A DNA stretch of 53,055 nt from Jiulongibacter sp. GTDB taxonomy: Bacteria; Bacteroidota; Bacteroidia; Cytophagales; Spirosomataceae. The stretch lies in contig JAHEBN010000005.1 in assembly GCA_024645245.1 (NCBI GenBank), forward strand, positions 4,818 through 57,872, read 5' to 3'. The translations under genes were made by a program, and so were the position numbers. Every line of letters begins with the position of its first letter. Position 1 is the first letter of the stretch. Of this stretch, positions 27,410 to 39,823 are shown one piece after another. The notes below the pieces were generated by a model, which saw nothing but the letters and a program-made list of their open reading frames with translations, ran no database searches and was not told the DNA's origin.

Positions 27410-28197
27410 AAAAAAGCTCCTTTATTTTACTCTTTTTCTTTATTTCATTTGGAACCTTGGCCCAAAAAATTGCCATAATGGGTGCATTGGAGGCGGAAGT
27501 GAATTTATTGAAAGATAATTTGAAAGGTATCAGGACCAAAAGTTTTGACGGAGTTACGTTTTACAAAGGAAAATTAGCCGGAAAAAAAGTTGTACTTCTT
27601 CAAGCCGGGGTCGGGAAAGTAAATGCCGCGTATGGTACAGCTATATTATTAAGTCATTTCAAAATAAAATCTGTCCTTTTTACCGGTGTGGCCGGCGGAA
27701 TTCACCCTGAAACCTATCCGGGTGATATAGTGATTGGTAAAAAAATGATACAATACGATTTTGGGAAACTGGATTCTACCGGTTTTAGCATTTGGCCCAC
27801 ACGAAACGCTCTTGCCCCGGATGGGAAGAACCCACTTTATATTCCATGCGATTCTGTTTTGTTTCATTTGGCGGTCAATACAGCAGGAGACACAGAATTT
27901 GAAAATGTGGGCGATAGGAATCCTGAAGTTTTCACGGGAAATATTGCTACCGGAGATATGTTTATCAATCAAACTGTAAAGGCAAAATGGCTCTACCAAA
28001 CTTTTGACGCATACGCCACCGAAATGGAAGGTGCCGCAGTAGCTCAGGTTTGTTATATGCAAAATGTACCTTTTTTGATTATCCGTAGCTGCAGCGATAA
28101 TGCCAATAACCAGGCTCATCTTGATTTTTCAGCTTTCCTGAAACCAGCTGCCAATAATTCGGCTAAACTGGTTATGGCGATTATGGGAAAACTCTAG
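27406..28197 (+). CDS. MTA/SAH nucleosidase-like enzyme with signal peptide
   Basis: A 263-residue nucleoside hydrolase of the 5'-methylthioadenosine/S-adenosylhomocysteine nucleosidase type. The catalytic acid is in GALEAEVNLL (Glu31), the EMEGAA motif is at 206-211 and the catalytic Asp is in SCSDNAN (Asp231). I start at the ATG at 27406, which overlaps the permease stop as ATGA and directly begins a Sec signal (MKKSSFILLFFF ending TLAQ). A signal peptide is odd for this normally cytosolic enzyme and suggests periplasmic release of a purine base for the coupled permease. A start two codons upstream (27400) is possible. Confidence 0.9.
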   Translation: MKKSSFILLFFFISFGTLAQKIAIMGALEAEVNLLKDNLKGIRTKSFDGVTFYKGKLAGKKVVLLQAGVGKVNAAYGTAILLSHFKIKSVLFTGVAGGIHPETYPGDIVIGKKMIQYDFGKLDSTGFSIWPTRNALAPDGKNPLYIPCDSVLFHLAVNTAGDTEFENVGDRNPEVFTGNIATGDMFINQTVKAKWLYQTFDAYATEMEGAAVAQVCYMQNVPFLIIRSCSDNANNQAHLDFSAFLKPAANNSAKLVMAIMGKL

Positions 28198-29099
28198 AAC
28201 ATGCGAGTAATGTGAAAATTAAAGGCGTTTTTCAATGCCAATTCTCCATTACTTAATTGCTGTGCTACAGGTATTTGCGTATTAAAACCAATGGCATTTT
28301 TACCTAAATAGGCTTCGGTGCCAAGAGAAACTGCTGCCAGCCAGCCGCCGGTATTTACATTCTTAATTTTATCCACTTTATCTTGTGAGGTAGCTTCACC
28401 ATACATGCCAACAATAGGCATTACCGTTGCATTGCCTATATTGAAACTATGAAATGCAGTAAAAGAAACATTGGATCGATTGGCAAAATGGTAGCCATTC
28501 TGGTTGGTGCCATTTATTTTGTATGTACCGTTGACATTAAGGCCGCTTTGTTTGTATTTCAAGGTGTAAATAACATTTAATGGAAAATCCCAACTACCTG
28601 TGCCCAATTGAAAATTGGCATTGGCCACTTCTTCCACATTGTACATGTCGTATTTGAATTTACCCGTAGGTGCTTTTATTCCTGCTCCGATTAATAAATT
28701 ATGATCCACCCTTCTGATTTTGGTCGTATCTGTAAACGTGTTTAAGAGATTATAATGAACTAAAACCGATACATCCCCCAAGCCCTGAATACTGTTTTTT
28801 GCTGCATCATACAGGCGTGTTTGGGTATTGAAATTTATGGGGGCAAAAAACATAAGTTGGGTTCTTTTTACTGGATAAAATCTGCCCCACAGCTCTGTCG
28901 TTTCGAAATGCTCGGTGGTTTTCAATACCTGGCTGCTTAAATGTGAATCGTAATTTTTAATTCGATATCGCATACCCATAAACTGCATGTGCGATTGCGG
29001 TAACATGCCAAAAAACGACCCTCCATTATTGCATCCACATATATCACAGGCATAGGAAGTGTTTGACAATAAGATTATTAAATAAATAAATTTCTTCAT
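28194..29099 (-). CDS. Outer-membrane beta-barrel-like protein with CDICGC motif (copper module)
   Basis: About 301 residues, beta-rich and without internal membrane helices, resembling transporter-type outer-membrane barrels. The signal peptide (MKKFIYLIILL ending TSYA) is followed at once by CDICGCNNGG, putting three cysteines at the mature N-terminus, a plausible metal ligand set. The protein ends in RMF, a usual barrel end. The ATG at 29097-29099 comes one base after the stop of the di-haem enzyme gene, so it is surely in that operon. Proteins of this kind occur beside MbnP/MbnH-like pairs in Bacteroidota. Its role in moving copper or a copper ligand across the outer membrane is inference. 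Its last codons overlap the convergent nucleosidase gene by 4 nt. Confidence 0.82.
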   Translation of the reverse strand: MKKFIYLIILLSNTSYACDICGCNNGGSFFGMLPQSHMQFMGMRYRIKNYDSHLSSQVLKTTEHFETTELWGRFYPVKRTQLMFFAPINFNTQTRLYDAAKNSIQGLGDVSVLVHYNLLNTFTDTTKIRRVDHNLLIGAGIKAPTGKFKYDMYNVEEVANANFQLGTGSWDFPLNVIYTLKYKQSGLNVNGTYKINGTNQNGYHFANRSNVSFTAFHSFNIGNATVMPIVGMYGEATSQDKVDKIKNVNTGGWLAAVSLGTEAYLGKNAIGFNTQIPVAQQLSNGELALKNAFNFHITRMF

Positions 29100-29100
29100 G

Positions 29101-30162
29101 TTAGTTGGGTGCAGCAAAACGTTTATCAGTTATAAACTCCTTGTCGCTTAGTGTTTTTAGAAACAAAATAATTTTCGATTTTTCATCATCTGTCATTTCA
29201 ATTCCCCTTTTATTATCGCCATAGAAGAAAACAGGATCAAGATTTAAAGAATAACTCATATCATTTTGATAATGATTCAAAACATCTTCTAAAGTGTTAA
29301 ATCTTCCATCATGCATATATGGAGCAGTAAAAGCAATATTTCGAAGACTTGGTGTTTTGAAGGTATAGCGGTCCTGTCTTTCGCCAGTTATATTATATCG
29401 GCCATAGTCTATATCTCTGAATGAAATGTCTAAACCATTATTGTGAAACTTCTCGTCTGAAAAAAGTGGCTCCTGATGGCAGGAACTGCATTTTTGTTTA
29501 AATAAAGCTAAACCTTCCAATTCGTCGGCACTCATTTCTCCACCTGTCTCTTTCCGGATATACTTATCGTATTTTGAATTATCAGAAATAAGTGCATTCA
29601 TAAACTGAGAAAGTGCTTTCAGAAACCTTTCTGTAGTGATTTCTTCGCTACCATAAGCTTCTTTAAACCTGGCTGTATAAGCAGGATCGGCTCGTAATTT
29701 TTTTAAAACATTTCCCAGTTCTTCGTCCATCTCTACCGGATTGGTAATAGGGGCAATTGGAAATAAGTCCAAATCAAAAACACCCCCATCCCAGAAAAAT
29801 GATCGCATAAAAGCTGTATTTTGAATTGGAGGAGCATTTCGGGTACCTATTCTGTTGTCGATTCCATGGCTCAGGGTATGGCCGTGATGTGTAAAAGCAT
29901 AAGATTGAGCGTGGCATTCTGCACAACTTATGGTGCCGTCACGCGAAAGTTTACCATCGTAAAAAATCTTCTTCCCTAACTCAAAACCAGCCTCTGTAAC
30001 CGGATTTTTGCTCATATCGTATACAGGCATAGGAAAATTATCCGGTTGGTAAAAAAGGGGCTTATCTTGAATCAATTCAGTTTCTGGAACTGCTGATGTC
30101 TCTGTACAAGACACCAGCAGAACTGTGAAAACCGGAACGTATATTAAATATTTCCTTAACAT
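29101..30162 (-). CDS. MbnH/MauG-like di-haem enzyme, lipoprotein
   Basis: A 353-residue member of the bacterial cytochrome c peroxidase/MauG superfamily. The lipobox ends at Cys19 (LLVSC). Two c-type haem sites are visible: CAECH at residues 80-84 and CSSCH near 228. Other family segments are GKKIFYDGKLSRDGTISC, GTRNAPPIQNTAFM and TPSLRNIAFTAPYMHDGRF. In methanobactin loci, MbnH is a di-haem enzyme that oxidises a tryptophan of its partner MbnP to kynurenine, creating a copper site. The gene here directly follows an MbnP-like gene (2 nt gap), which favours that role over plain peroxide removal. Confidence 0.9.
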   Translation of the reverse strand: MLRKYLIYVPVFTVLLVSCTETSAVPETELIQDKPLFYQPDNFPMPVYDMSKNPVTEAGFELGKKIFYDGKLSRDGTISCAECHAQSYAFTHHGHTLSHGIDNRIGTRNAPPIQNTAFMRSFFWDGGVFDLDLFPIAPITNPVEMDEELGNVLKKLRADPAYTARFKEAYGSEEITTERFLKALSQFMNALISDNSKYDKYIRKETGGEMSADELEGLALFKQKCSSCHQEPLFSDEKFHNNGLDISFRDIDYGRYNITGERQDRYTFKTPSLRNIAFTAPYMHDGRFNTLEDVLNHYQNDMSYSLNLDPVFFYGDNKRGIEMTDDEKSKIILFLKTLSDKEFITDKRFAAPN

Positions 30163-30164
30163 GT

Positions 30165-30962
30165 TTAATCTAAATGTACATGATCAATCATAAATGCTTC
30201 TGCGTAATTTTCAGAAATATCAATACCCAGTTTAGGGTTGTGAATAACGGGATTGGCCACCAGACTTACCTTTTTAGTACCATCGAAAACTTTGGCTACA
30301 TCAAATATTACATGAACATCCGGAGCGATATCGCGACGTACAGTGGCGGTCTGATTCATATGTAGTTCAAGATTACGGATATTATTGGGTGTGGGAGCAT
30401 CTTTTCCGCCGAATCCACCAATATGTAATTCATATTTTGTACTTCCATTTACATTCACTTTCGATGAGTTACCTTCCATTTTAAAGAAGATATAACCCAT
30501 ATTCCAGCTCCAGTACATATTGTCGTCGCCATATCCGGCCGGATCAAGTACCCCTGTTCTCAATGACACATCCGAAACGCTATGAATGCTATCCACCCCA
30601 ATGGTATACATTAAATGGTTATAATCTCCTGCTGGCACATCTTTAAGTTCGATCACCTGCGAATTTGTGTCTGATTCTTTCACCAGAGAATACTGGTCAG
30701 GAAAAGAAACAGTTTCACCCGTGGCAGACATTAATTTAATATTGGAGATGAAGTAATTGAGGCGGGTAATAGTGAAATCTTCACTTGTGGAATTGGTTCC
30801 TTTAGTAGTGCCCAAAACGATTTCTTCCGCACCCAGTCGGTTATCAAACTCAATAAAAACAGAGTTTTTGTCACCCGGCTTTATTTCGTCCGTTTTTTCG
30901 CATGAAGATATAAAAAATATCAATAAAAGGCTTATAATCAAATAATTAAATTTGGATTTCAT
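30165..30962 (-). CDS. MbnP-like copper-binding lipoprotein
   Basis: A 265-residue lipoprotein (lipobox FISSC, Cys21) of the MbnP family. The family pattern is visible: FIEFDNRLG at the mature start, ITRLNYFISNIKL, the TIGVDSIHS segment, and the tryptophan-rich NMYWSWNMGYIFFK at 148-161 with Trp151 and Trp153, followed by LHIGGFGG. MbnP proteins bind copper after a conserved tryptophan is oxidised to kynurenine by MbnH; an MbnH-like gene follows directly. A His-containing C-terminus (MIDHVHLD) may add ligands. Which Trp would be modified is not decided here. Confidence 0.87.
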   Translation of the reverse strand: MKSKFNYLIISLLLIFFISSCEKTDEIKPGDKNSVFIEFDNRLGAEEIVLGTTKGTNSTSEDFTITRLNYFISNIKLMSATGETVSFPDQYSLVKESDTNSQVIELKDVPAGDYNHLMYTIGVDSIHSVSDVSLRTGVLDPAGYGDDNMYWSWNMGYIFFKMEGNSSKVNVNGSTKYELHIGGFGGKDAPTPNNIRNLELHMNQTATVRRDIAPDVHVIFDVAKVFDGTKKVSLVANPVIHNPKLGIDISENYAEAFMIDHVHLD

Positions 30963-30998
30963 TTCTTAGTTTTTAATAATTAGTAAATTGTGACATGC

Positions 30999-31014
30999 CC
31001 GAAATTGATTTCGG
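30999..31014. other. Small palindromic hairpin between the Cys protein and mbnP-like genes
   Basis: CCGAAAT and ATTTCGG form a 7-bp stem around a 2-nt centre. There is no T run, so it may be an RNA-processing or regulatory hairpin within the operon. Confidence 0.35.
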
Positions 31015-31045
31015 TTTGCCATGAAAAAAATAAAATGAGATGAAA

Positions 31046-31432
31046 TCAGGCTTGAGGAGGATGGAAAATTACCTGACTTCGCGTGCCAGGTAAAAATTTA
31101 ATATAGGAAACTAAAACTTTATCCACTTGAATAAAAATGTCGTGCTGAAATTCAAATGTTGTTTGAGAAAGGGACGTTTCTGTATGAAAGAGTTTACTTA
31201 CAAAGGTGTTGGTGGCTTGCTTCTCGTCTTTTTGTTCGGCAGCCTTAATTTGTTTTGCCAAATAACACTGCCCATCGCAATGCAATTCTGGTTTGTCTTT
31301 ATTGACGCAGTAATTTTTAATAATAAAATCTTTTCTTAACTCGTAATTTACAAACAAAGCAGGCACGATCATCGCTTTTATAAAAAGCAAGCATACCATA
31401 AAAAGTGCTCCTGTTTGCTTAAGTTTATTCAT
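31046..31432 (-). CDS. Small Cys-containing hypothetical protein (first gene of copper module)
   Basis: A 128-residue protein with one N-terminal hydrophobic segment (about 9-28, signal or anchor), then a compact cysteine motif, YCVNKDKPELHCDGQCYL (Cys42, Cys52 and Cys56), and a lysine/glutamate-rich stretch. The C-terminal half holds several His. I recognise this Cys pattern from uncharacterised Bacteroidota proteins, not from a named family. It is the first gene of the unit leading into the MbnP/MbnH-like pair, 83 nt apart. Metal (copper) binding is likely from composition and context but unproven. Confidence 0.75.
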   Translation of the reverse strand: MNKLKQTGALFMVCLLFIKAMIVPALFVNYELRKDFIIKNYCVNKDKPELHCDGQCYLAKQIKAAEQKDEKQATNTFVSKLFHTETSLSQTTFEFQHDIFIQVDKVLVSYIKFLPGTRSQVIFHPPQA

Positions 31433-31449
31433 TTTCCTATAACAGACTA

Positions 31450-31457
31450 CAAAGGTA
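31450..31457 (-). promoter_or_regulatory. Bacteroidota -7 box for the copper module
   Basis: Reads TACCTTTG on the minus strand, matching TAnnTTTG, about 18 nt before the ATG of the small Cys protein. It suggests transcription separate from the nos operon upstream. Confidence 0.5.
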
Positions 31458-31510
31458 AGACGGAAATGGTTTGAAAAAATTGCGTTTGGTCATAAAATGG
31501 CAATAAATTT

Positions 31511-31539
31511 CCCAGCCATTTAATAATAAATGGCCAGGG
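31511..31539 (-). terminator. Hairpin at the end of the nos operon
   Basis: GCCATTTA pairs with TAAATGGC around a 4-nt loop, extended by CCC/GGG. It follows the fasciclin gene stop by 6 nt. The following T tract is weak (AAATTTATT), so termination may be partial. Confidence 0.6.
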
Positions 31540-31544
31540 ATTAT

Positions 31545-32087
31545 TCATTTTGGCAGAATGACGGTATCAACCACATGTACCCATCCATTTGAAGCTTTTA
31601 CTGAACCAATAATTTTGGCACCGTCAACACTCACTCCATTATCGTCGACCTTGAAAGTGACATTTGTACCATCTACCATTCCCATAGTTTGGCCATCCTG
31701 GAAAAAATCTGCAGTTAAGGCAGAAGTCATTACATGATGCTGCAAAATATCCGAAAGTTTATCTTTGTTTTCTGGTTTTAATAAATTTTCAACTGTGCCG
31801 GCAGGTAATTTGTCGAAGGCGGCATTGGTTGGAGCAAAAACGGTAAACGGACCCGCATTTGCTAAAGAAGTTACCAAATCTGCGGCTTTTAATGCAGCTA
31901 CTAATGTGGTATGATCTGGTGATCCTACAGCCACTTTTACCACATCTTTTTCTGAGACATCATCAACTACGGCTTCCTGTCCGGCCAAAACCGGAGTTTC
32001 ACTTGCTTGGTTATCAGATGTGCCGTTGCTACCTTGGCAAGCACAAATTCCAAAAATGATCAGTAGAGAGAGAGCAATTGTTTTCAT
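31545..32087 (-). CDS. Fasciclin-domain lipoprotein in the nos operon
   Basis: A 180-residue lipoprotein (lipobox ending GICAC, Cys17) with one fasciclin (FAS1) domain at about residues 55-178: FTVFAPTNAAFDKLPAGTVENLL, then LQHHVM, and the final WVHVVDTVILP. A low-complexity acidic linker precedes it. FAS1 domains mediate adhesion or protein contacts. Its gene is 18 nt after nosY on the same strand and ends the nos transcription unit, so it may be an accessory factor of N2O reduction, but no role is known. Confidence 0.92.
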   Translation of the reverse strand: MKTIALSLLIIFGICACQGSNGTSDNQASETPVLAGQEAVVDDVSEKDVVKVAVGSPDHTTLVAALKAADLVTSLANAGPFTVFAPTNAAFDKLPAGTVENLLKPENKDKLSDILQHHVMTSALTADFFQDGQTMGMVDGTNVTFKVDDNGVSVDGAKIIGSVKASNGWVHVVDTVILPK

Positions 32088-32105: not shown

Positions 32106-32873
32106 TTATAAATCTTTCTTATTAAATTTTGAAAATGCTACCAGTACCGGTGAGATAAACCACACAATAAGTGCGGTTAATGAAACTGCAAGCCCGCTTG
32201 CAGACCCGAAAAAGCTTTGGAATACAGCTCCTGTGATACCCATAAGAGCTGATACATCCATTTTTATTAGGACCAGAATCCTGGCTAGGTCAATTGGATT
32301 TAATAACGAAAAAAGAACTGTGGCTTTTTCCATTGGATAATCACTAAAGTTTAGAAAAATGGAAAGCACCAAGCCGTCGTATACTACTGAGAAATAAAAC
32401 CAAATGGCCAATGCCAGCCCCATCCCTTTGGCTTTATCGCGGGTAATTACAGCAGATAAAAAAGCAAGGGAAACAAAAATTAAAGTGAGAATAGACCCGG
32501 TAAGCACTAAGCGAAACCCGGTGATAGTACCCTCATAAACCAATACTGGTAAGCCAACTCCGATTAAAAAAGCCATTAAAAGTGAAATGGAAACCCCCAA
32601 ATATTGGCTGAAGAAAATAGTTTTGCGAGAGAGTGGCTGAGAGGCCAGCAGTTCCAGAAATTCATAGGAATTATAAAAATGGGTACTGGCAAAAATTATA
32701 CTTACCAGTGGCACCACTATTAAATTGATATTAAGTAGACTGATAACCCCTTTTCCCGGATTTACTTCAAACCCAAAAAAGGCAAGGCTGATAAGCAAAA
32801 GCAATAAGGTATAGGCGATTACGAAGCGATTTCGCAATATATCATACAATACATATTTGAGCACTTTTTTCAT
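32106..32873 (-). CDS. nosY: NosY, ABC permease of the Nos maturation system
   Basis: A 255-residue inner-membrane protein with six hydrophobic segments, of the ABC-2-type NosY family. It forms a complex with NosF (ATPase) and the periplasmic NosD needed to build the copper-sulfur CuZ cluster of NosZ; the exact cargo is debated between a sulfur species and mechanical action on NosD. It starts 21 nt after nosF and has the usual length. Assignment rests on the fold and on its place in a complete nosLDFY order. Confidence 0.9.
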   Translation of the reverse strand: MKKVLKYVLYDILRNRFVIAYTLLLLLISLAFFGFEVNPGKGVISLLNINLIVVPLVSIIFASTHFYNSYEFLELLASQPLSRKTIFFSQYLGVSISLLMAFLIGVGLPVLVYEGTITGFRLVLTGSILTLIFVSLAFLSAVITRDKAKGMGLALAIWFYFSVVYDGLVLSIFLNFSDYPMEKATVLFSLLNPIDLARILVLIKMDVSALMGITGAVFQSFFGSASGLAVSLTALIVWFISPVLVAFSKFNKKDL

Positions 32874-32894
32874 TTTTGATGGGTTTGCAAGACG

Positions 32895-33638
32895 TTAAAC
32901 ATATGTTGGAATTAACTCAGATTTGGCTTTTTTTTTCATCAAACAGGCTATTATTTTGCCCAGTTTTCCTTCCTGATATTTGTCTCGGAGAGCTTCAGTT
33001 TTTTCAAAGAATTGAATCTGAGAATCCTGAATATAAAGCACATGATCGGTTAATTCTTCCAGATCTGCCATGATATGTGAGGTAATTAATATCAACTTTC
33101 CTTTTTCTCTTTCTTTTTGAATTTTATCTTTCAGAATTTCACAGGAAGCCGGGTCTAAACCTGCCGTAGGCTCGTCCAGAATAAGTACGCTTGGGTCAAA
33201 ACGAAATGCCAAAGCTGCACCCACTTTTTGTCGGGTTCCACCACTAAGGGTACTCATTGTTTTGTTTTGAAAAGTTTCAATATCAAAAGCTTTTATAAGC
33301 TCATTGTCGGGCGTTCCCTTCCAGCCGGCATTTTTACGAATATCCGTCATCATTTCAATTAGCTGATAGATTTTAAGGTTTGGCGGGTATTGGCTGATTT
33401 GCGGCATGTAGCCTATCTTTCCACGGTATTTATGATTATTTGCTATTAATATATCATCGAAAAACAGGTTACCTTTATCAGGAATTACCATGCCCAATAA
33501 TATTTTGATCAGGGTGGTTTTTCCGGAGCTATTCGGACCTACAATAGCTATAGATTGCCCCATTTCAAAGTCTATACAGATATCATGAAGCACTACCTGA
33601 TTTCCGAATTTCTTATATATATTTTCAAAGCGGATCAT
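32895..33638 (-). CDS. nosF: NosF, ABC ATPase of the Nos maturation system
   Basis: A 247-residue ABC ATPase. Walker A is GPNSSGKT at residues 34-41, the signature LSGGTRQK is near 135, and Walker B LILDEPTAGLD is near 158. The Q-loop lies in GYMPQISQYPPNLK. It energises the NosDFY complex that matures the catalytic copper cluster of NosZ. Its start overlaps the nosD end by 14 nt, so the two are translationally linked. Confidence 0.95.
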   Translation of the reverse strand: MIRFENIYKKFGNQVVLHDICIDFEMGQSIAIVGPNSSGKTTLIKILLGMVIPDKGNLFFDDILIANNHKYRGKIGYMPQISQYPPNLKIYQLIEMMTDIRKNAGWKGTPDNELIKAFDIETFQNKTMSTLSGGTRQKVGAALAFRFDPSVLILDEPTAGLDPASCEILKDKIQKEREKGKLILITSHIMADLEELTDHVLYIQDSQIQFFEKTEALRDKYQEGKLGKIIACLMKKKAKSELIPTYV

Positions 33639-34896
33639 AATCTGAGGTTATAATTTTAAAGGGTAACATTAGAGGTCGATCGTCTTTTAGGTTTTCCGGG
33701 GTGAAACTGGGGATCACCTTTTCAATTTTATCAAGAAGGGTAGCCGTAAAGCTTCGCAACAACATCATTGCTTGTGGCATTCTTTCAATCAGTGTCGAAA
33801 ACAAACTTACTGGTCGATAATTGATATCACCAATTCCATTTTTATCTAAATCATAGCCTTCGTATTTGTCCCAATAGTTGCTATCTAAAGTATTACTGAC
33901 TACATTTCCATTGGTAGCTATATCGAAAGTGTTATTGATAAAATTGTTGTTAACAATAGTGTTTTCTTCACAATTAGCCTGAATTCGCATAGCCACCCCA
34001 TTGTGTTTAAATTCGTTTTGTACGATATTAATCCGGTTGCATCCTTCCAAAAGAGCTCCCATCGTATTATTATCAAAAATGTTATATTCTATTTCACTAT
34101 CTGTTATGTCTTTAAGTAAAATTCCGTATGCTGCACTACCCCAGTTGTTTTTAAAAATGTTGTGGTGCATTTTTACAAATTTGGTATACATAACTGCCAC
34201 CCCTGCACCGTTGCTATCGAATGTATTGTAAGCATAACTATTCTTATGAGAAAACATGAAATGTAAGCCATAACGGATATTACGTATGCTTACATTACGC
34301 TCTACAGTGGTATTGGTGACAAATTCAAAATAGAGTCCATCGCGTTGACCTTCTACAAAATTGTTTTTCACAAATAAACTATCACATTTCCAGAAGTGAA
34401 TGCCATTACCTGTATTTTGTTCATTTGACGGCGAACCATGTACTTCGTTGTTATCAACGGTACAATTATTTGAGGCAGATAAGTAAATTCCGAAGTAACA
34501 ATCAATGATTTTGTTTTTTTCAATCAAAACATTCCTGGATTCAATAACTTTAATAGCTGCCCAATCAATAACACTAGTTACACCCACATGTTGAAATTGA
34601 ATTCCGCTTACTACAACATTATCTGATTTTATAGTTAAAATTTCTCCTTTGTAAAGGCCGTCAAAGATTGGTAAGTTTTTACCAATGAGCTCGATAGGTT
34701 TATTAATTAAAAGATTATTTACCTGATACTGCCCCTCATAAACCCATATTTTATCTCCTGCTTTTGCATTTCTCAGTGCTTCCAATAATTCACTTTGCTT
34801 TTGCACTTTAATGATCCGGGCATTTACATTCAGTGCATAGAATTGAAGAAGTGAAAAGGTGATAATCAGCAACAATATGTTTTTTAGGTTAATCAT
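33625..34896 (-). CDS. nosD: NosD, periplasmic maturation factor of nitrous oxide reductase
   Basis: A 423-residue exported protein with a signal peptide (LLLIITFSLLQFYALNVNA) and a right-handed parallel beta-helix built from CASH/PbH1 repeats; runs such as NNFINNTFDIATNGN and NKIIDCYFGIYLSASNN show the ladder. NosD hands copper or cluster parts to NosZ in the periplasm, working with NosF and NosY, whose genes follow. Length and position match clade II nos clusters. Confidence 0.94.
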   Translation of the reverse strand: MINLKNILLLIITFSLLQFYALNVNARIIKVQKQSELLEALRNAKAGDKIWVYEGQYQVNNLLINKPIELIGKNLPIFDGLYKGEILTIKSDNVVVSGIQFQHVGVTSVIDWAAIKVIESRNVLIEKNKIIDCYFGIYLSASNNCTVDNNEVHGSPSNEQNTGNGIHFWKCDSLFVKNNFVEGQRDGLYFEFVTNTTVERNVSIRNIRYGLHFMFSHKNSYAYNTFDSNGAGVAVMYTKFVKMHHNIFKNNWGSAAYGILLKDITDSEIEYNIFDNNTMGALLEGCNRINIVQNEFKHNGVAMRIQANCEENTIVNNNFINNTFDIATNGNVVSNTLDSNYWDKYEGYDLDKNGIGDINYRPVSLFSTLIERMPQAMMLLRSFTATLLDKIEKVIPSFTPENLKDDRPLMLPFKIITSDYDPL

Positions 34897-34917
34897 GATA
34901 AAAGTTTAATTAGCTGA

Positions 34918-35349
34918 TTAAAACAAGTTTTTTAGTTCATTCCAGTTCAATTCTTTTGCCTCATTCCCAATCTGAATTGGCATGGTTTCTCTTGAATTAT
35001 TGACCTGAATTGCTGCTGTTTGTCCACCCATAGGGCTTTTAATATTTTCATCTTTAATAAAATGAGCTTCTTTGACAGGAATAAATGTTTTACTAGTAAA
35101 TTCATTTATTAATATGTGGGAATAGTCGGCCTCTGAATTATTATCCATTTTAATGTATTTTATCAAACAGGAGATATCGTCGAATTTGAATACCTTACTT
35201 TTCTGAGTGACCAGTTCACCTGCAAATTCGGGTTCCATAATGGTCATTTTGCAAAACTGGCAATAATCTTTCCCATAGTTAATTGGTTGCGGTTCTGCTT
35301 TACAAGATATCAGACAATAAATCAATAAAACTGGGATAAGGCTTTTCAT
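34918..35349 (-). CDS. nosL: NosL, copper chaperone lipoprotein
   Basis: A 143-residue lipoprotein (lipobox LISC, Cys16) with the conserved CQFCKM copper-binding motif at residues 30-35 and the FDDISCLIKY segment of the NosL family. NosL binds Cu(I) and passes it to the NosD/NosZ assembly pathway. It lies between the small membrane protein gene (1 nt gap) and nosD (21 nt), inside the nos operon. Confidence 0.94.
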   Translation of the reverse strand: MKSLIPVLLIYCLISCKAEPQPINYGKDYCQFCKMTIMEPEFAGELVTQKSKVFKFDDISCLIKYIKMDNNSEADYSHILINEFTSKTFIPVKEAHFIKDENIKSPMGGQTAAIQVNNSRETMPIQIGNEAKELNWNELKNLF

Positions 35350-35350
35350 T

Positions 35351-35923
35351 TTATTTATTGGTTTTTATTTCAAAAAATAATACAGCGAAAGTAATCACAG
35401 CCAGCAATACAAAAATCCAACCTCCGCTGGCTGGTATGGAATAAGCTCCGAAATTCAAAAGTTCTTTATATCCTATCAGAGGAGGCTGGTAGGTCATTCC
35501 CGGTACTTTAATAGCGGCATCATCAGATAAATTGTGACCGTATTCATACCCCCATTTATAATAATCAACCAGTGCAATTATACCACTAAGTACCAATGTT
35601 ATTGCAAATGCAATTAGCACTTTACGGCTTTTCGAAAAGGCTGTAAAAAGCCCGAAGGCTACAAGAAAAGCTACGATAAAGGGTAAAATTTTGAATTCGG
35701 GGAACATTTCTTCTTTAATGTGGGCCATACCAATGTAATGGTTGAGTCCATTTATAATATCAACCTGGCCGGATAACTTATATAGCCAAATTTGCATAGA
35801 AAGCCCTTCCGGATATTGTGGTGCCCACAAGTCGATTCTCCAGATTGGTAAAAAATATGTTGCAATTAATAATATAGAACCTATCGCAATTAAGGTACTG
35901 GATAATTTCTTCAAAGGTTTCAT
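35351..35923 (-). CDS. Nos-cluster membrane protein
   Basis: A 190-residue protein with four membrane segments (about 10-28, 85-104, 108-127 and 167-185) and a periplasmic loop rich in Trp/Tyr (IDLWAPQYPEGLSM). A gene of this type sits between nosZ and nosL in many Bacteroidota clade II nos clusters. It carries no CxxC or haem motif and its function is unknown; a role in electron supply or copper handling would be only inference from position. Confidence 0.82.
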   Translation of the reverse strand: MKPLKKLSSTLIAIGSILLIATYFLPIWRIDLWAPQYPEGLSMQIWLYKLSGQVDIINGLNHYIGMAHIKEEMFPEFKILPFIVAFLVAFGLFTAFSKSRKVLIAFAITLVLSGIIALVDYYKWGYEYGHNLSDDAAIKVPGMTYQPPLIGYKELLNFGAYSIPASGGWIFVLLAVITFAVLFFEIKTNK

Positions 35924-35949
35924 TTTTTTTTCATTTTTACCTGATAATT

Positions 35950-35981
35950 ATTAAGGAGGGAGTAAATCTCCACTCCTTAAT
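35950..35981 (-). other. Intercistronic stem-loop after nosZ
   Basis: ATTAAGGAG/CTCCTTAAT extended by GGAG/CTCC gives a 13-bp stem with one bulged base and a 5-nt loop. No T run follows on the minus strand, so it looks like an mRNA-stability or processing element rather than a full terminator. Confidence 0.6.
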
Positions 35982-35992
35982 AAAGGCATATT

Positions 35993-37993
35993 TTATTTAG
36001 TTTTTTCATCCGCCTGATTCATGGCAGTTTTGCCAACATGCCAGCTAAGGGGAATATTACTATTGGCAGGAGATACCCTCATGTACCCTTGCATTTCCTG
36101 GTGCAGTGCCGAGCAAAAGTCGGTACAATAGAAGGGAGTTATGCCTATGCGATCGGCGGTCCATTTTAAAGTTTGAGTTTCGCCCGGCATAATCAATAAC
36201 TCGGCGTTATTAGCACCTCGAATAGCAAATCCGTGAGGTACATCCCAGTCTTGTTCCAGATTGGTTACATGGAAATAAACTTCATCACCCAGCCTTACGC
36301 CTTCTATATTATCCGGAGCAAAGTGCGATCTTGACGAAGTCATATATACGTGCACTTCTTTTCCTTTTCTTTCCACTTTTGTTTCTTTTTCTCCTTTGGC
36401 TACATAGGGGTGCTTATTCTCTTCAATTTTGAAGATTTTTACTGATTTACTTTCAATCAGGCTGGCTGGTATAGCTTCGGCATAATGGGGCTCGCCGATG
36501 GTTGGAAAGTCTAACAAAAGCTTCATTTTTTCGCCGGAAATATCATATAACTGGGCAGATTGTGTAAGTTCAGGGCCTGTTGGCAAATACCTGTCTTTTG
36601 TGATCTTATTATAGGCAATTACATATTTACCATAAGGTTTAGTGGTGGGTCCGCCGGGGATACTCAAGTGTCCGACAGAATAGTAAGTAGGCACGCGGTC
36701 TAACACTTCCAGTTTTTCAATATTCCATTTTACAATTTCGGAAGAAACGAACATGGAAGTATAGGCGTTTCCTTTTCCATCAAACTCGGTATGTAAGGGA
36801 CCAAGACCTGGTTTTTTTACCTCCCCATGTAATACGGCGTCATAATTCATCACCGGAATCCCTTCAAATTCGCCATCGAAATTTTTAGCGGCTATTGCTT
36901 TTTGAAGTTTATCGAAAGAGAATACCGGAATTACGGCAGCCAGCTTTCCTGAGCCAATAATGTATTGACCAGTAGGGTCTACATCGCAACCATGAGGCGA
37001 TTTAGGACAAGGAATAAAATACAACATATCCGGACAGTCTTTTGGGTCCAATGTCATCACTTCATTCATTATAGTAGAAGTACCGGAATGCGTCACTTCA
37101 CTATACACATTATGTGCATATTTAGCCGGAGTTTTCTTTCCTTTGCCTTGTGCCAGATATTCTTCCGCTTTTTTCCAGTTTATAGCAAGTATGAAATCCT
37201 TGTCTTTTTGTGAAGCATTCACTTCCAGTAAGGTATTGGCTTGCTCGGTGTTATATGAAGAGAAAAATATCCAATCTTTTGATGGGCCTTTACCTGCCCG
37301 AGCCAAATCATAACTAATTGCGGGAGTGGTTAATTGGAATTTCAGAGCCATACGACCGGTTTCCTTATCAATACTTACAAAACTAATATATCCCTTAAAA
37401 TTTTGTTTGAATGAGTTAATTGACACATCTCCAAAATTATCTGGTGGTACAGAAAAGCGAGTTCCTGCCACGGCGTATTCTGTATTAAATGTGACAAAAG
37501 GAGAGGAGTGATTACCACCTGAGTTGGGTAGTTCGATAATTTCATCAGTTCGGAATGTTTGCAGGTTAATCCTCGCAATTCTTGGCGTATTGTTACCATT
37601 AATAAAAACCCAGCGGCCATCATGTTCACCGTTTGTGACGGATAGCGTGGTATGGTGGGCGTCGTCCCAAGGTACAAATCCATGAGAGGTATTTAGCATA
37701 GGCTTAGTTTCTTCACTATATCCCCAGCCACTTTCGGCATGTTGTGAAAATATCGGGATAATTCGGAGAACTCTACCCGAAGGCAACCCTACCACAGACA
37801 TTTGACCATTAAAGCCGCCAGAAACAAAATCGTAAAGTTCGTCATGGGTCCCTGGAGCCACGTATACTTTTTCTGCGGCATCTCCTGCAATTGTAGAGCC
37901 ACCAGAGCCACCTTTACCTGCTGGTTTACAGGCATTTATTATAAGGAATAATGAGGCTATTGCCGCAAAGCCTAAAAGTTTTTTATTTTTCAT
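35993..37993 (-). CDS. nosZ: Nitrous oxide reductase, clade II (Sec-type)
   Basis: A 666-residue copper enzyme that reduces N2O to N2 in the periplasm. The N-terminus is a Sec lipoprotein signal (IINAC, Cys22) without a twin-arginine motif, marking clade II. Catalytic CuZ histidines are in WDDAHHTTLS (113-114), EHDGRW (124), GGNHSSPF (162), and later SPHGCDVDP, GPLHTEF, SVGHLS and GEPHYAE. The C-terminal cupredoxin carries the CuA site YCTDFCSALHQEM (Cys623, Cys627, His631, Met634). It follows a cytochrome c gene by 13 nt and leads nosL, nosD, nosF and nosY. All key ligands I can identify are present, so the enzyme is probably active. Confidence 0.98.
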   Translation of the reverse strand: MKNKKLLGFAAIASLFLIINACKPAGKGGSGGSTIAGDAAEKVYVAPGTHDELYDFVSGGFNGQMSVVGLPSGRVLRIIPIFSQHAESGWGYSEETKPMLNTSHGFVPWDDAHHTTLSVTNGEHDGRWVFINGNNTPRIARINLQTFRTDEIIELPNSGGNHSSPFVTFNTEYAVAGTRFSVPPDNFGDVSINSFKQNFKGYISFVSIDKETGRMALKFQLTTPAISYDLARAGKGPSKDWIFFSSYNTEQANTLLEVNASQKDKDFILAINWKKAEEYLAQGKGKKTPAKYAHNVYSEVTHSGTSTIMNEVMTLDPKDCPDMLYFIPCPKSPHGCDVDPTGQYIIGSGKLAAVIPVFSFDKLQKAIAAKNFDGEFEGIPVMNYDAVLHGEVKKPGLGPLHTEFDGKGNAYTSMFVSSEIVKWNIEKLEVLDRVPTYYSVGHLSIPGGPTTKPYGKYVIAYNKITKDRYLPTGPELTQSAQLYDISGEKMKLLLDFPTIGEPHYAEAIPASLIESKSVKIFKIEENKHPYVAKGEKETKVERKGKEVHVYMTSSRSHFAPDNIEGVRLGDEVYFHVTNLEQDWDVPHGFAIRGANNAELLIMPGETQTLKWTADRIGITPFYCTDFCSALHQEMQGYMRVSPANSNIPLSWHVGKTAMNQADEKTK

Positions 37994-38006
37994 TTTTTTA
38001 TTGAGT

Positions 38007-38462
38007 TTATTTTACACCATCATTGTTTCTCATAAATTCCAGAATACCCCGTGCCTGATCGGGTTCTACGTTTTGATTTGGCATGCGTACCAAACACTCT
38101 TCGAGCATTTTTTGAGCCTCCGGATCAGTTTCAAGCATCATGTCTACATTTGTTATCATATTAATAATCCATTCGGGTGTTCTTTTTGAGGTGACTCCCT
38201 CCCAACCTGGGCCAACTAATCTTTCGGAGTTCAGCCTGTGACAAGCAGAACATTTCATATCATATATTTCCTGACCAGTTTTGACCATCGCCTGATTTAA
38301 TGGGGTGCTTAGGTCAACTTTTTTTACTTCGGTGCCATGAATTTCTTCTTGTTTTAAAAGTACCGAATCGTCGGTTTCTGGGCTTTCAGCCCTTTTTTCG
38401 GCTCCTCCGCAATTCCAAAGAAGTAAGGCCAGCAGCCATAAGAGTAGAGGTTTTTGTTTCAT
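38007..38462 (-). CDS. Cytochrome c lipoprotein of the nos operon
   Basis: A 151-residue mono-haem cytochrome c with the haem site CSACH near residue 80 and a Met axial ligand probably in MPNQN near the C-terminus. A lipoprotein-like signal (LLLWNCGG) anchors it. It is the first gene of the nos operon and is the likely electron donor to NosZ, as in other clade II clusters. I start at the ATG at 38460-38462; the open frame reaches 38567, but the -7 box at 38524-38531 lies inside that extension. Confidence 0.9.
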   Translation of the reverse strand: MKQKPLLLWLLALLLWNCGGAEKRAESPETDDSVLLKQEEIHGTEVKKVDLSTPLNQAMVKTGQEIYDMKCSACHRLNSERLVGPGWEGVTSKRTPEWIINMITNVDMMLETDPEAQKMLEECLVRMPNQNVEPDQARGILEFMRNNDGVK

Positions 38463-38523
38463 TGCATTCACAGTTTTTATGATTAAAGAATAAAAGATAT
38501 TATTCTCTTTTATTTTGATACCA

Positions 38524-38531
38524 CAAATGTA
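38524..38531 (-). promoter_or_regulatory. Bacteroidota -7 box for the nos operon
   Basis: Reads TACATTTG on the minus strand (TAnnTTTG), placing the transcript start near 38517 and a leader of about 55 nt. An imperfect repeat ATTTTG...CAAAT (38512-38528) overlaps the start region and could bind a regulator. Confidence 0.5.
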
Positions 38532-38580
38532 TTTTTCAGGCAAATCCTTAAATATGACCGATTGCATATTTGGATTATGA

Positions 38581-38602
38581 TTATTATCATATAAAATAAT
38601 AA
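38581..38602. promoter_or_regulatory. AT-rich inverted repeat between the divergent nos and ric units
   Basis: Perfect 7-bp arms TTATTAT and ATAATAA with an 8-nt spacer, upstream of both the nos operon and the RIC gene. It is a candidate binding site for the neighbouring Rrf2 regulator. AT-rich repeats arise by chance, so support is weak. Confidence 0.3.
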
Positions 38603-38649: not shown

Positions 38650-39381
38650 ATGGAAGAGACAATTATTGATCAAACAGTAGGAGAAATAGTTAGGAAATCG
38701 CCTGCTACAGCCCGTTTATTCAGAAAATTAAATATTGACTTTTGCTGTGGAGGTAATGTTACCTTAAAGTCCGTATGTGATAGAAAAGGCTTGGATTATG
38801 CTCGGGTAATTGAGGGTATTGCTGATTTAAATATCAAAAAAGGGGCTACTCATGAACTTAATTTTGATGAAATGACTTTGAGTTTTTTAGCCGAATATAT
38901 TTACCAAATTCACCATAAATATTTGTACCGCAATTTACCCGAGGTAGGCTTTTTTGTTAATAAATTATATGAAAAACACAAAGAAAAATACCCCTGGCTC
39001 TATGAACTTCATAAATTGTATACGGAATTAGAAAAAGATTTACTGGGTCATATGTCTAATGAAGAAGATATATTGTTTCCTTATATTAAGGATTTAGAGG
39101 AAAAAAAGAAAACAAATGAGGTTTTCAAAAAATCCATTTTTGGTTCATTTGAAAATCCTTTGGTTATTATGAAAAGTGAGCACGATCATGTGGGTGAAAT
39201 TATACACCGGCTGGGAGAGATTACGAATGATTATTCAGCTCCGGGTGATGCTTGTAATTCACATTTGGTGATGTTGCAAAAACTTAAAGAACTCGTAGAA
39301 GATTTGATTCAACATATTCATTTAGAAAACAATATTTTATTTCCAAAAATTGTAGATTTGGAGCAAAAATATTTTTCATAA
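38650..39381 (+). CDS. ric: RIC-type iron-sulfur cluster repair di-iron protein
   Basis: A 243-residue protein with a ScdA N-terminal (DUF542) domain at about 5-60, including the paired cysteines of NIDFCCGGN (Cys32-Cys33), and a hemerythrin-like domain at about 80-240 with His/Glu ligands in YQIHHKYL, HMSNEEDILFPY, KSEHDHVGE and HIHLENNILFP. Members (YtfE, ScdA, DnrN) repair Fe-S clusters damaged by nitric oxide or oxidants. It is divergent from the nos operon and followed after 10 nt by an Rrf2 regulator, fitting an NO-stress unit in an N2O-respiring organism. Confidence 0.95.
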   Translation: MEETIIDQTVGEIVRKSPATARLFRKLNIDFCCGGNVTLKSVCDRKGLDYARVIEGIADLNIKKGATHELNFDEMTLSFLAEYIYQIHHKYLYRNLPEVGFFVNKLYEKHKEKYPWLYELHKLYTELEKDLLGHMSNEEDILFPYIKDLEEKKKTNEVFKKSIFGSFENPLVIMKSEHDHVGEIIHRLGEITNDYSAPGDACNSHLVMLQKLKELVEDLIQHIHLENNILFPKIVDLEQKYFS

Positions 39382-39391
39382 ATCAGACTAA

Positions 39392-39823
39392 ATGATATCA
39401 AAAACATGTGGATATGCAATCAGGGGCATTTTATTGCTTGCTCTGGAAGGAAATCGGGAGCGTAAGTTGGGTATTCAGGAAATTGCTGAAGAATTAAAAG
39501 TACCCCAACATTTTATGGGTAAAATAATGCAGGAACTTGTGCGTAAGGGCTTAATACTTTCTGTTAAAGGCCCTCATGGGGGTTTTTATCCTAAAACCGA
39601 TGTTTTGGAAATAAGCCTTATACAAATAGTTGAAGCAATCGACGGACTAAATATTTTAAGAAAATGCTTTTTAGGCCGTGAAGAATGTTCCAGTGAAAAT
39701 CCATGTCCAATGCACGATGATTTCGATAAATGCAGAAGTGCAATATTTCAAATTTTTGAAAGTAAAAAAATAGGAGAATTAATAAATAATGTAGAAGATA
39801 ATTTAACCTTTATATCTACTTGA
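39392..39823 (+). CDS. Rrf2 family regulator with three conserved Cys (NsrR/IscR-like)
   Basis: A 143-residue winged-helix regulator. The DNA-binding part contains QEIAEELKVPQHFMGKIMQE (about 29-48) and the wing KGPHGGFY. Cys92, Cys99 and Cys105 (CFLGREEC...NPC) are placed as the Fe-S ligands of NsrR and IscR. Its coupling to a RIC gene and location beside nos genes favour nitric oxide sensing, as by NsrR, but the sequence alone cannot separate NsrR from other Fe-S Rrf2 types. Its stop is 1 nt from the stop of the convergent DUF2480 gene. Confidence 0.92.
   Translation: MISKTCGYAIRGILLLALEGNRERKLGIQEIAEELKVPQHFMGKIMQELVRKGLILSVKGPHGGFYPKTDVLEISLIQIVEAIDGLNILRKCFLGREECSSENPCPMHDDFDKCRSAIFQIFESKKIGELINNVEDNLTFIST

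Follow-up and report, generated by a model that had tools for sequence, protein, structure and literature searches.

Copper sites built around a protein-borne kynurenine are known from a few methanotrophs. Here we describe four minus-strand genes, at 28194..31432 of a 53,055-nucleotide stretch of Jiulongibacter sp. (Bacteroidota; contig JAHEBN010000005.1, positions 4,818 to 57,872; hereafter 'the window'), which encode a small Cys protein, an MbnP-family lipoprotein, an MbnH/MauG-type di-haem enzyme and an outer-membrane barrel with an N-terminal CxxCGC motif, and which adjoin the nos operon for nitrous oxide (N2O) respiration. The closest described system is the MbnP/MbnH pair of Methylosinus trichosporium OB3b (structures 7l6g and 6e1c), which the genes in the window resemble in fold, in a WxW motif, in the positions of a Met and a His, and in the adjacent di-haem enzyme. 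They differ from it in that the window MbnP is only 17% identical and lacks the four-Cys motif named for 7l6g; in that the pair scores under the TIGR04052 and TIGR04039 cut-offs; in that the window's genome gave no match to MbnB (MbnC and the precursor peptide were not searched for); and in the presence of the barrel, the small Cys protein and a His-x-His tail. The 2021 paper on MbnP reportedly describes varied genomic settings.

MopE/SACCP and CorA/CorB of methanotrophs are described as a copper protein with a Trp-derived kynurenine and, beside it, a c-type protein with two haems; they are found at the cell surface and are repressed by copper (PMC3912023, PMC3621798). The likeness to our locus lies in this pairing of a kynurenine-type copper protein with a di-haem protein; the differences lie in the protein family and the use of two His ligands, and the cited passages describe no barrel partner. 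One of these papers also states that the MbnP/MbnH pair is conserved far beyond methanobactin producers, and the section cited names no partners (PMC3621798). Further afield, NosA was once proposed to feed NosZ, and OprC is found also in non-denitrifiers (PMC8610252); OprC/NosA thus parallel the present system in outer-membrane copper handling and in a tie to NosZ combined with a wider occurrence, yet they are large TonB receptors, whereas the barrel here is modelled with around 12 strands and no plug. In the literature that we searched, no paper links nosZ and MbnP, nothing turned up on MbnP in Bacteroidota, and neither 'metallo-mystery pair' nor 'MbnP family' is used. What this locus adds is a fixed set of partners for MbnP/MbnH, together with a tail that predicts the barrel; this bears on the copper supply of N2O-reducing Bacteroidota, which is known to restrict how much N2O is removed, even though the module is not confined to N2O.

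The MbnP/MbnH pair

All four open reading frames (ORFs) claimed in an earlier note on this DNA were confirmed, and its naming of an MbnP-like lipoprotein with a YWSW motif, and of a di-haem MbnH/MauG-like enzyme, is borne out by what follows; cleavage sites and lipidation were assigned by eye, and the features given in this text lie on the minus strand unless described as divergent. The lipoprotein (30165..30962; 265 amino acids) scores 170.9 bits against PF20243 (MbnP) in Pfam, for a cut-off of 27, and has a lipobox-like ISSC at Cys21, the sole Cys of the protein; an MYWSW motif at residues 149-153, containing Met149, Trp151 and Trp153; and a C-terminus holding His261-x-His263. Its structure model, drawing on 37 aligned homologues, has a predicted local distance difference test score (pLDDT) of 89.8 and matches the six chains of 7l6g, the Methylosinus MbnP, and nothing else up to an expectation value (E) of 0.001; the superposition has a Z score of 18.4 over 217 residues at a root-mean-square deviation of 2.9 Å, and the next entry reaches a Z score of 5.2 (VIA-align 2).

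Taken alone, the window MbnP had no match by sequence among solved structures; a profile of the 37 homologues reaches 7l6g (E 0.0025), with MYWSW and LHIG set against MAWNW and VHVG. In this alignment Met149, Trp151-x-Trp153 and His180 fall on the Met, WxW and His of 7l6g, of which the Met and His, with kynurenine, reportedly form the copper site, the first Trp of WxW being the precursor of the kynurenine. Both Trp151 and Trp153 are invariant in the 37 homologues and His180 is kept in at least 90%, whilst the Met and His are both retained in 82 of the 96 pattern-matching MbnPs among the 102 MbnP ORFs of our named loci.

The enzyme next to it (29101..30162; 353 amino acids) scores 189.7 bits against PF03150, well over the Pfam cut-off of 25.6, and carries two haem motifs (CAECH at residue 80 and CSSCH at 225) and a single Trp, at position 124. 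In the alignment to 6e1c, the structure of MbnH, its Tyr298 falls on a Tyr, the residue that serves as axial ligand of the second haem in the MauG/MbnH type; in a search of solved structures the best match was 1iqc, a bacterial di-haem peroxidase.

Some loci hold second MbnP paralogues, each with its own mbnH, that keep WxW and lack the Met and His (LSWMWH, IAWMWH and ISWMWH in L103:11615-12406, L118:13499-14290 and L131:10976-11776, respectively); judged by these motifs, they perhaps carry a modified Trp and no copper site. An MbnP-like protein in L061 (8501-9283) has no WxW, and that locus has no mbnH.

The tail, the barrel and the cassette

The barrel gene (28194..29099; 301 amino acids) is read from an ATG at 29099, preferred on reading the sequence over the TTG of the ORF table, and its product has no match in Pfam or NCBIfam, nor does a 37-row profile of the family match any sequence in the Protein Data Bank. 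After a signal-like stretch the protein begins with CDICGC (Cys18, 21 and 23, counted from that ATG), and the three Cys are invariant in 37 homologues. In the model (pLDDT 85.4; run with one extra leading residue) residues 1-29, including the Cys-bearing N-terminus, are disordered. The nearest solved folds are FapF (5o67; E 4.0e-11, template-modelling score 0.65) and the COG4313 channel 4rl8 (E 4.5e-9), at around 15% identity; FapF is not known to have a CxxCGC N-terminus, and no role in copper is known for either FapF or the COG4313 channels.

The presence of this barrel is predicted by the C-terminus of MbnP, an association that is new here. Amongst 128 MbnP ORFs from 131 loci that were found by MbnP and not by the barrel, a canonical CxxCGC barrel lies within 5 kb in 45 of the 47 with a His-x-His tail and in one of the 81 without; the other 80 untailed MbnPs include nine beside a divergent barrel. 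These loci include 99 of the 118 MbnP places over the cut-off, those left out being three that were already included and the 16 weakest, and six of the 131 gave no MbnP ORF. The exceptions are L174, whose barrel was found by another search; L259, with a longer His-rich tail; and, thirdly, L043_10, a second paralogue beside a regular pair. Counted over the named loci, a barrel follows 69 tailed MbnPs and not four others, and follows two untailed MbnPs and not 23.

The small Cys protein (31046..31432; 128 amino acids) has Cys14, 42, 52 and 56, a single N-terminal membrane or signal stretch, and the motif C-x-N..P..C-x-G-x-C-Y-L, in which Cys42, 52 and 56 are invariant across 15 homologues. No family in Pfam or NCBIfam matches it over the cut-off; its sole Pfam match, at 19.6 bits for a cut-off of 33.6, would have made it a ribonucleotide-reductase relative, an assignment that we rejected.

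A profile of 13 barrels recovered 79 named barrel loci, with MbnH in 77, MbnP in 76 and the small Cys protein in 72 of the stretches fetched, several of those without one member being brief stretches where a contig runs out. Most often the genes follow the order small Cys gene, mbnP, mbnH, barrel. This recurrence of the same set makes the four genes more than a chance grouping, and the barrel and small Cys protein, put forward in the earlier note as undescribed parts of a system, are indeed constant partners with no family match of their own. Of 395 Bacteroidota genomes, 43 have both MbnP and the barrel where 15.3 would be expected (p 3e-16; barrels were counted at E below 1e-9, which retains 63 of 86 matching genomes), and in 41 of the 43 the two lie within 6 kb of one another; MbnP and the small Cys protein share 58 genomes, for 23.6 expected with 97 small Cys genomes counted.

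The cassette is one unit with its own promoter. For this and the other promoter and motif counts, start codons were picked by a fixed rule. Of 66 named loci, 56 have the Bacteroidota −7 motif, TAnnTTTG, no more than 100 nucleotides ahead of the small Cys gene (shuffled mean 4.8), whereas two of 74 have it ahead of mbnP (shuffled mean 4.9). In the window this −7 box is TACCTTTG, at 31450..31457, and 22 nucleotides from it sits a degenerate Crp/Fnr-type box, ATGACCAAACGCAA (31480..31493), with seven of ten positions kept. A Crp/Fnr palindrome scoring at least 8 of 10 stands exactly 22 nucleotides before the −7 box in 10 of 61 cassette promoters, for three of 61 at the next best spacing, and four of the ten belong to Lacihabitans species.

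Variants of the set also occur. A further mbnH lies between the small Cys gene and mbnP in 11 of the 79 loci (L065-L068, L091, L092, L094-L097 and L141). In L148 (8743-9756), L153, L154 and L155 there is no MbnP, and the barrels belong to a broader family whose N-termini show different Cys patterns (GCCS, ACCSAG, TCGC), the barrel in L148 being convergent to nosY. The small Cys protein, present in 14 of 20 loci chosen for reading, occurs beyond the cassette, with matches in 155 of the 395 genomes. In L142-L147 and L156-L161, where MbnP is not nearby, its gene precedes TonB-dependent receptors, in several cases close to nos operons; in 11 of these loci (L143-L147 and L156-L161) the receptor-like ORF is next or next but one to it, as called by family search for L143, L146, L147 and L159 and by similarity for the other seven. 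PepSY, BNR or HlyD/CusB-like proteins are further neighbours, and in L143 and L145 the pair of small Cys gene and receptor comes directly, or nearly so, after nosY. We considered whether TonB receptors beside cassettes are clear copper receptors, and set this aside: only that of L146 has a copper-receptor family as its best match, at 218.5 bits for a cut-off of 472.45, and the receptor near the cassette in L048 passes the threshold for a siderophore family.

Proposed copper handling and its alternatives

Synthesising these observations, we favour a reading, with a probability of about one in two, in which the cassette is a Bacteroidota version of the kynurenine-copper system of MbnP and MbnH and serves general copper handling, with nos as one of its clients. 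The known parts, MbnP and MbnH, suggest that a di-haem enzyme creates a copper site containing kynurenine: MbnH would oxidise Trp151 in the lipid-anchored MbnP, and the resulting kynurenine, with Met149 and His180, could then hold a single copper ion. The constant thiol-tipped barrel and the matching tail suggest that copper changes hands at the outer membrane, such that the His-x-His tail may give copper to, or take it from, its partner barrel, a predicted FapF/COG4313-like channel whose flexible N-terminus, with the three thiols of CDICGC, would reach into the periplasm. Presumably held at a membrane by its N-terminal segment, the small Cys protein might act as the next thiol carrier or as a sensor, and the module as a whole would supply periplasmic copper enzymes, those of nos among them in this lineage. 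A general role is suggested by the presence of the cassette without nosZ, by its own promoter, and by other copper clients in the window's genome, which has a CoxB-like protein (133.5 bits at best, just under the cut-off of 147.7) and three SCO proteins; no NirK over the cut-off was found in it.

Several points weigh against this reading. TIGR04052, the MbnP_like_WxW equivalog of NCBIfam, gives the lipoprotein 53.3 bits, under the curated 140, and TIGR04039 (MbnH), the best NCBIfam match of the enzyme, gives 227 bits for a cut-off of 362.85. FapF exports a polypeptide, so that the fold of the barrel is no pointer to a metal, and TonB receptors, too, are neighbours of the small Cys protein, that near the cassette in L048 being over a siderophore-family cut-off, which makes another metal possible. 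When the last 25 residues are left out of a quick tree, the tail trait changes 12 times, at least four of these on supported branches, and there are three concordant and no discordant independent pairs (p 0.25), too few for significance; both tests used 122 related rows, and for the pairs L174 was set by hand as having a barrel. The tail as a mark of one clade is set aside by the 12 changes, though the independent pairs are too few to test it, and the pairing of tail and barrel, strong in count, is thus only partly independent of descent. What the analysis shows directly is the family and the fold, the conservation of the site residues, the cassette with its promoter, and the pairing of tail and barrel; copper itself, the kynurenine, the direction of transport, the hand-off from tail to thiols and the role of the small Cys protein are inferred.

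The best placed of the alternatives, though one that we regard as doubtful, goes further and takes the cassette for a new kind of importer: a TonB-independent copper route across the outer membrane, under Crp/Fnr control where nos is present. Here the kynurenine-site lipoprotein would use its His-x-His tail to dock on a channel of 12 strands dedicated to it, and Cu(I) would pass to the periplasmic CxxCGC thiols of the channel and from there to the membrane-held thiol carrier. Were this so, a new kind of copper importer would be common to many Cytophagales and Flavobacteriia and be wired to anaerobic control.

Behind it, and in our view unlikely, comes the converse proposal that the module binds or exports copper against excess and does not supply it. 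A 12-strand channel could export, and one cluster of small Cys gene and TonB receptor (L158) includes a membrane-fusion protein of the CusB/HlyD kind; on the other hand, the kynurenine site is known from copper-starved cells, and the known relatives CorA and MopE are copper-repressed (PMC3912023). Lower still we place a role for MbnH and MbnP in redox or peroxide chemistry, with the barrel either unrelated or a polypeptide-export channel of the FapF kind that happens to share the operon. The standing of MbnH among the bacterial di-haem peroxidases and of FapF as the nearest fold to the barrel would suit such a role; it is made improbable by the retention of the copper-site Met and His, by the MbnH-type placing of Tyr298 on the Tyr of 6e1c, and by the pairing of tail and barrel, which argues that the barrel and MbnP work together.

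The tie to nos and the neighbouring genes

The nos operon (32106..38567; nosY, nosF, nosD, nosL, a 190-amino-acid membrane protein, nosZ and a cytochrome c) lies upstream of the cassette on the same strand, in the gene order also found in L031, and its nosZ (35993-37993) is of the Sec type, or clade II (TIGR04246; 920.6 bits for a cut-off of 625). The earlier note had proposed a system for copper acquisition or delivery dedicated to N2O respiration; the first part stands, in so far as the fold, WxW, Met and His are those of a kynurenine-type MbnP/MbnH copper pair, and the dedication does not. Co-occurrence with nosZ in Bacteroidota, the test that the note had set beforehand, shows no excess: of the 395 genomes, 96 have MbnP and 127 have nosZ over the cut-off, with both in 26 for 30.9 expected (Fisher p 0.26), and the barrel and nosZ share 21 for 20.3 expected. 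A search for nosZ that covered 50 of the 79 cassette loci found it over the cut-off in 13 genomes and as a fragment, counted as present, in one, leaving 36 with none. In a set of 39 genomes of relatives, MbnP occurs in 28 and nosZ in nine.

A tie of position is nevertheless seen. MbnP lies within 20 kb of nosZ in three of the 26 genomes with both (0.33 expected; p 0.0046, rising to 0.041 when the window's genome is left out), and in two of eight such relatives; the small Cys protein does so in nine of 44 (0.53 expected; p 5e-9, and 8e-8 when that genome is left out), among the 112 of 155 small Cys genomes listed. These p values are Poisson estimates that take positions as random and genomes as independent, with kinship ignored. 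NosD and nosL adjoin the cassette in five of the 79 named loci, these being Lacihabitans and one Cytophagales metagenome-assembled genome.

Regulatory sequence gives a further, weaker tie. The core TGAYNNNNRTCA is found upstream of eight of 12 nos operons, for a shuffled mean of 0.37 and a maximum of 3, and occurs four times in the window, one copy being that before nos, where the palindrome TGATAATAATCA stands at 38578..38589. The Crp/Fnr-type box is present in eight of 13 nosZ-bearing cassette genomes and 10 of 35 others (p 0.049, with kinship ignored). As proof of control shared with nos we rejected this box, which occurs also in several nosZ-free genomes (L085, L087, L106 and L070) and is degenerate in the window. 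From the linkage and the box common to nos promoters, nos would seem to be a preferred client in certain lineages, and in this one it is plausibly a client of the module and not its purpose. That the module is dedicated to N2O respiration and acquires its copper for NosZ is accordingly the least probable of the readings weighed here, the adjacency, the linkage of the small Cys protein and the shared box in relatives being outweighed by the missing co-occurrence, the many cassette genomes free of nosZ, and the promoter of the cassette itself, with a hairpin ahead of it.

This hairpin (31511..31539) occupies the gap between the cassette and the gene for a fasciclin-domain protein; the segment 31495-31548 folds at −18.6 kcal/mol for −9.5 in shuffles (z −3.3), and no strong T run follows the hairpin. 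The fasciclin-domain gene itself (31545..32087; PF02469, 113.9 bits) stands between nosY and the cassette, and its kind also adjoins nos genes in L144, L145 and L150. Divergent from the operon, 38650-39823 encodes what the translations, judged by eye, suggest to be an RIC-like di-iron protein and a regulator of the Rrf2 type; proteins of these two kinds are typical of nitric-oxide stress.

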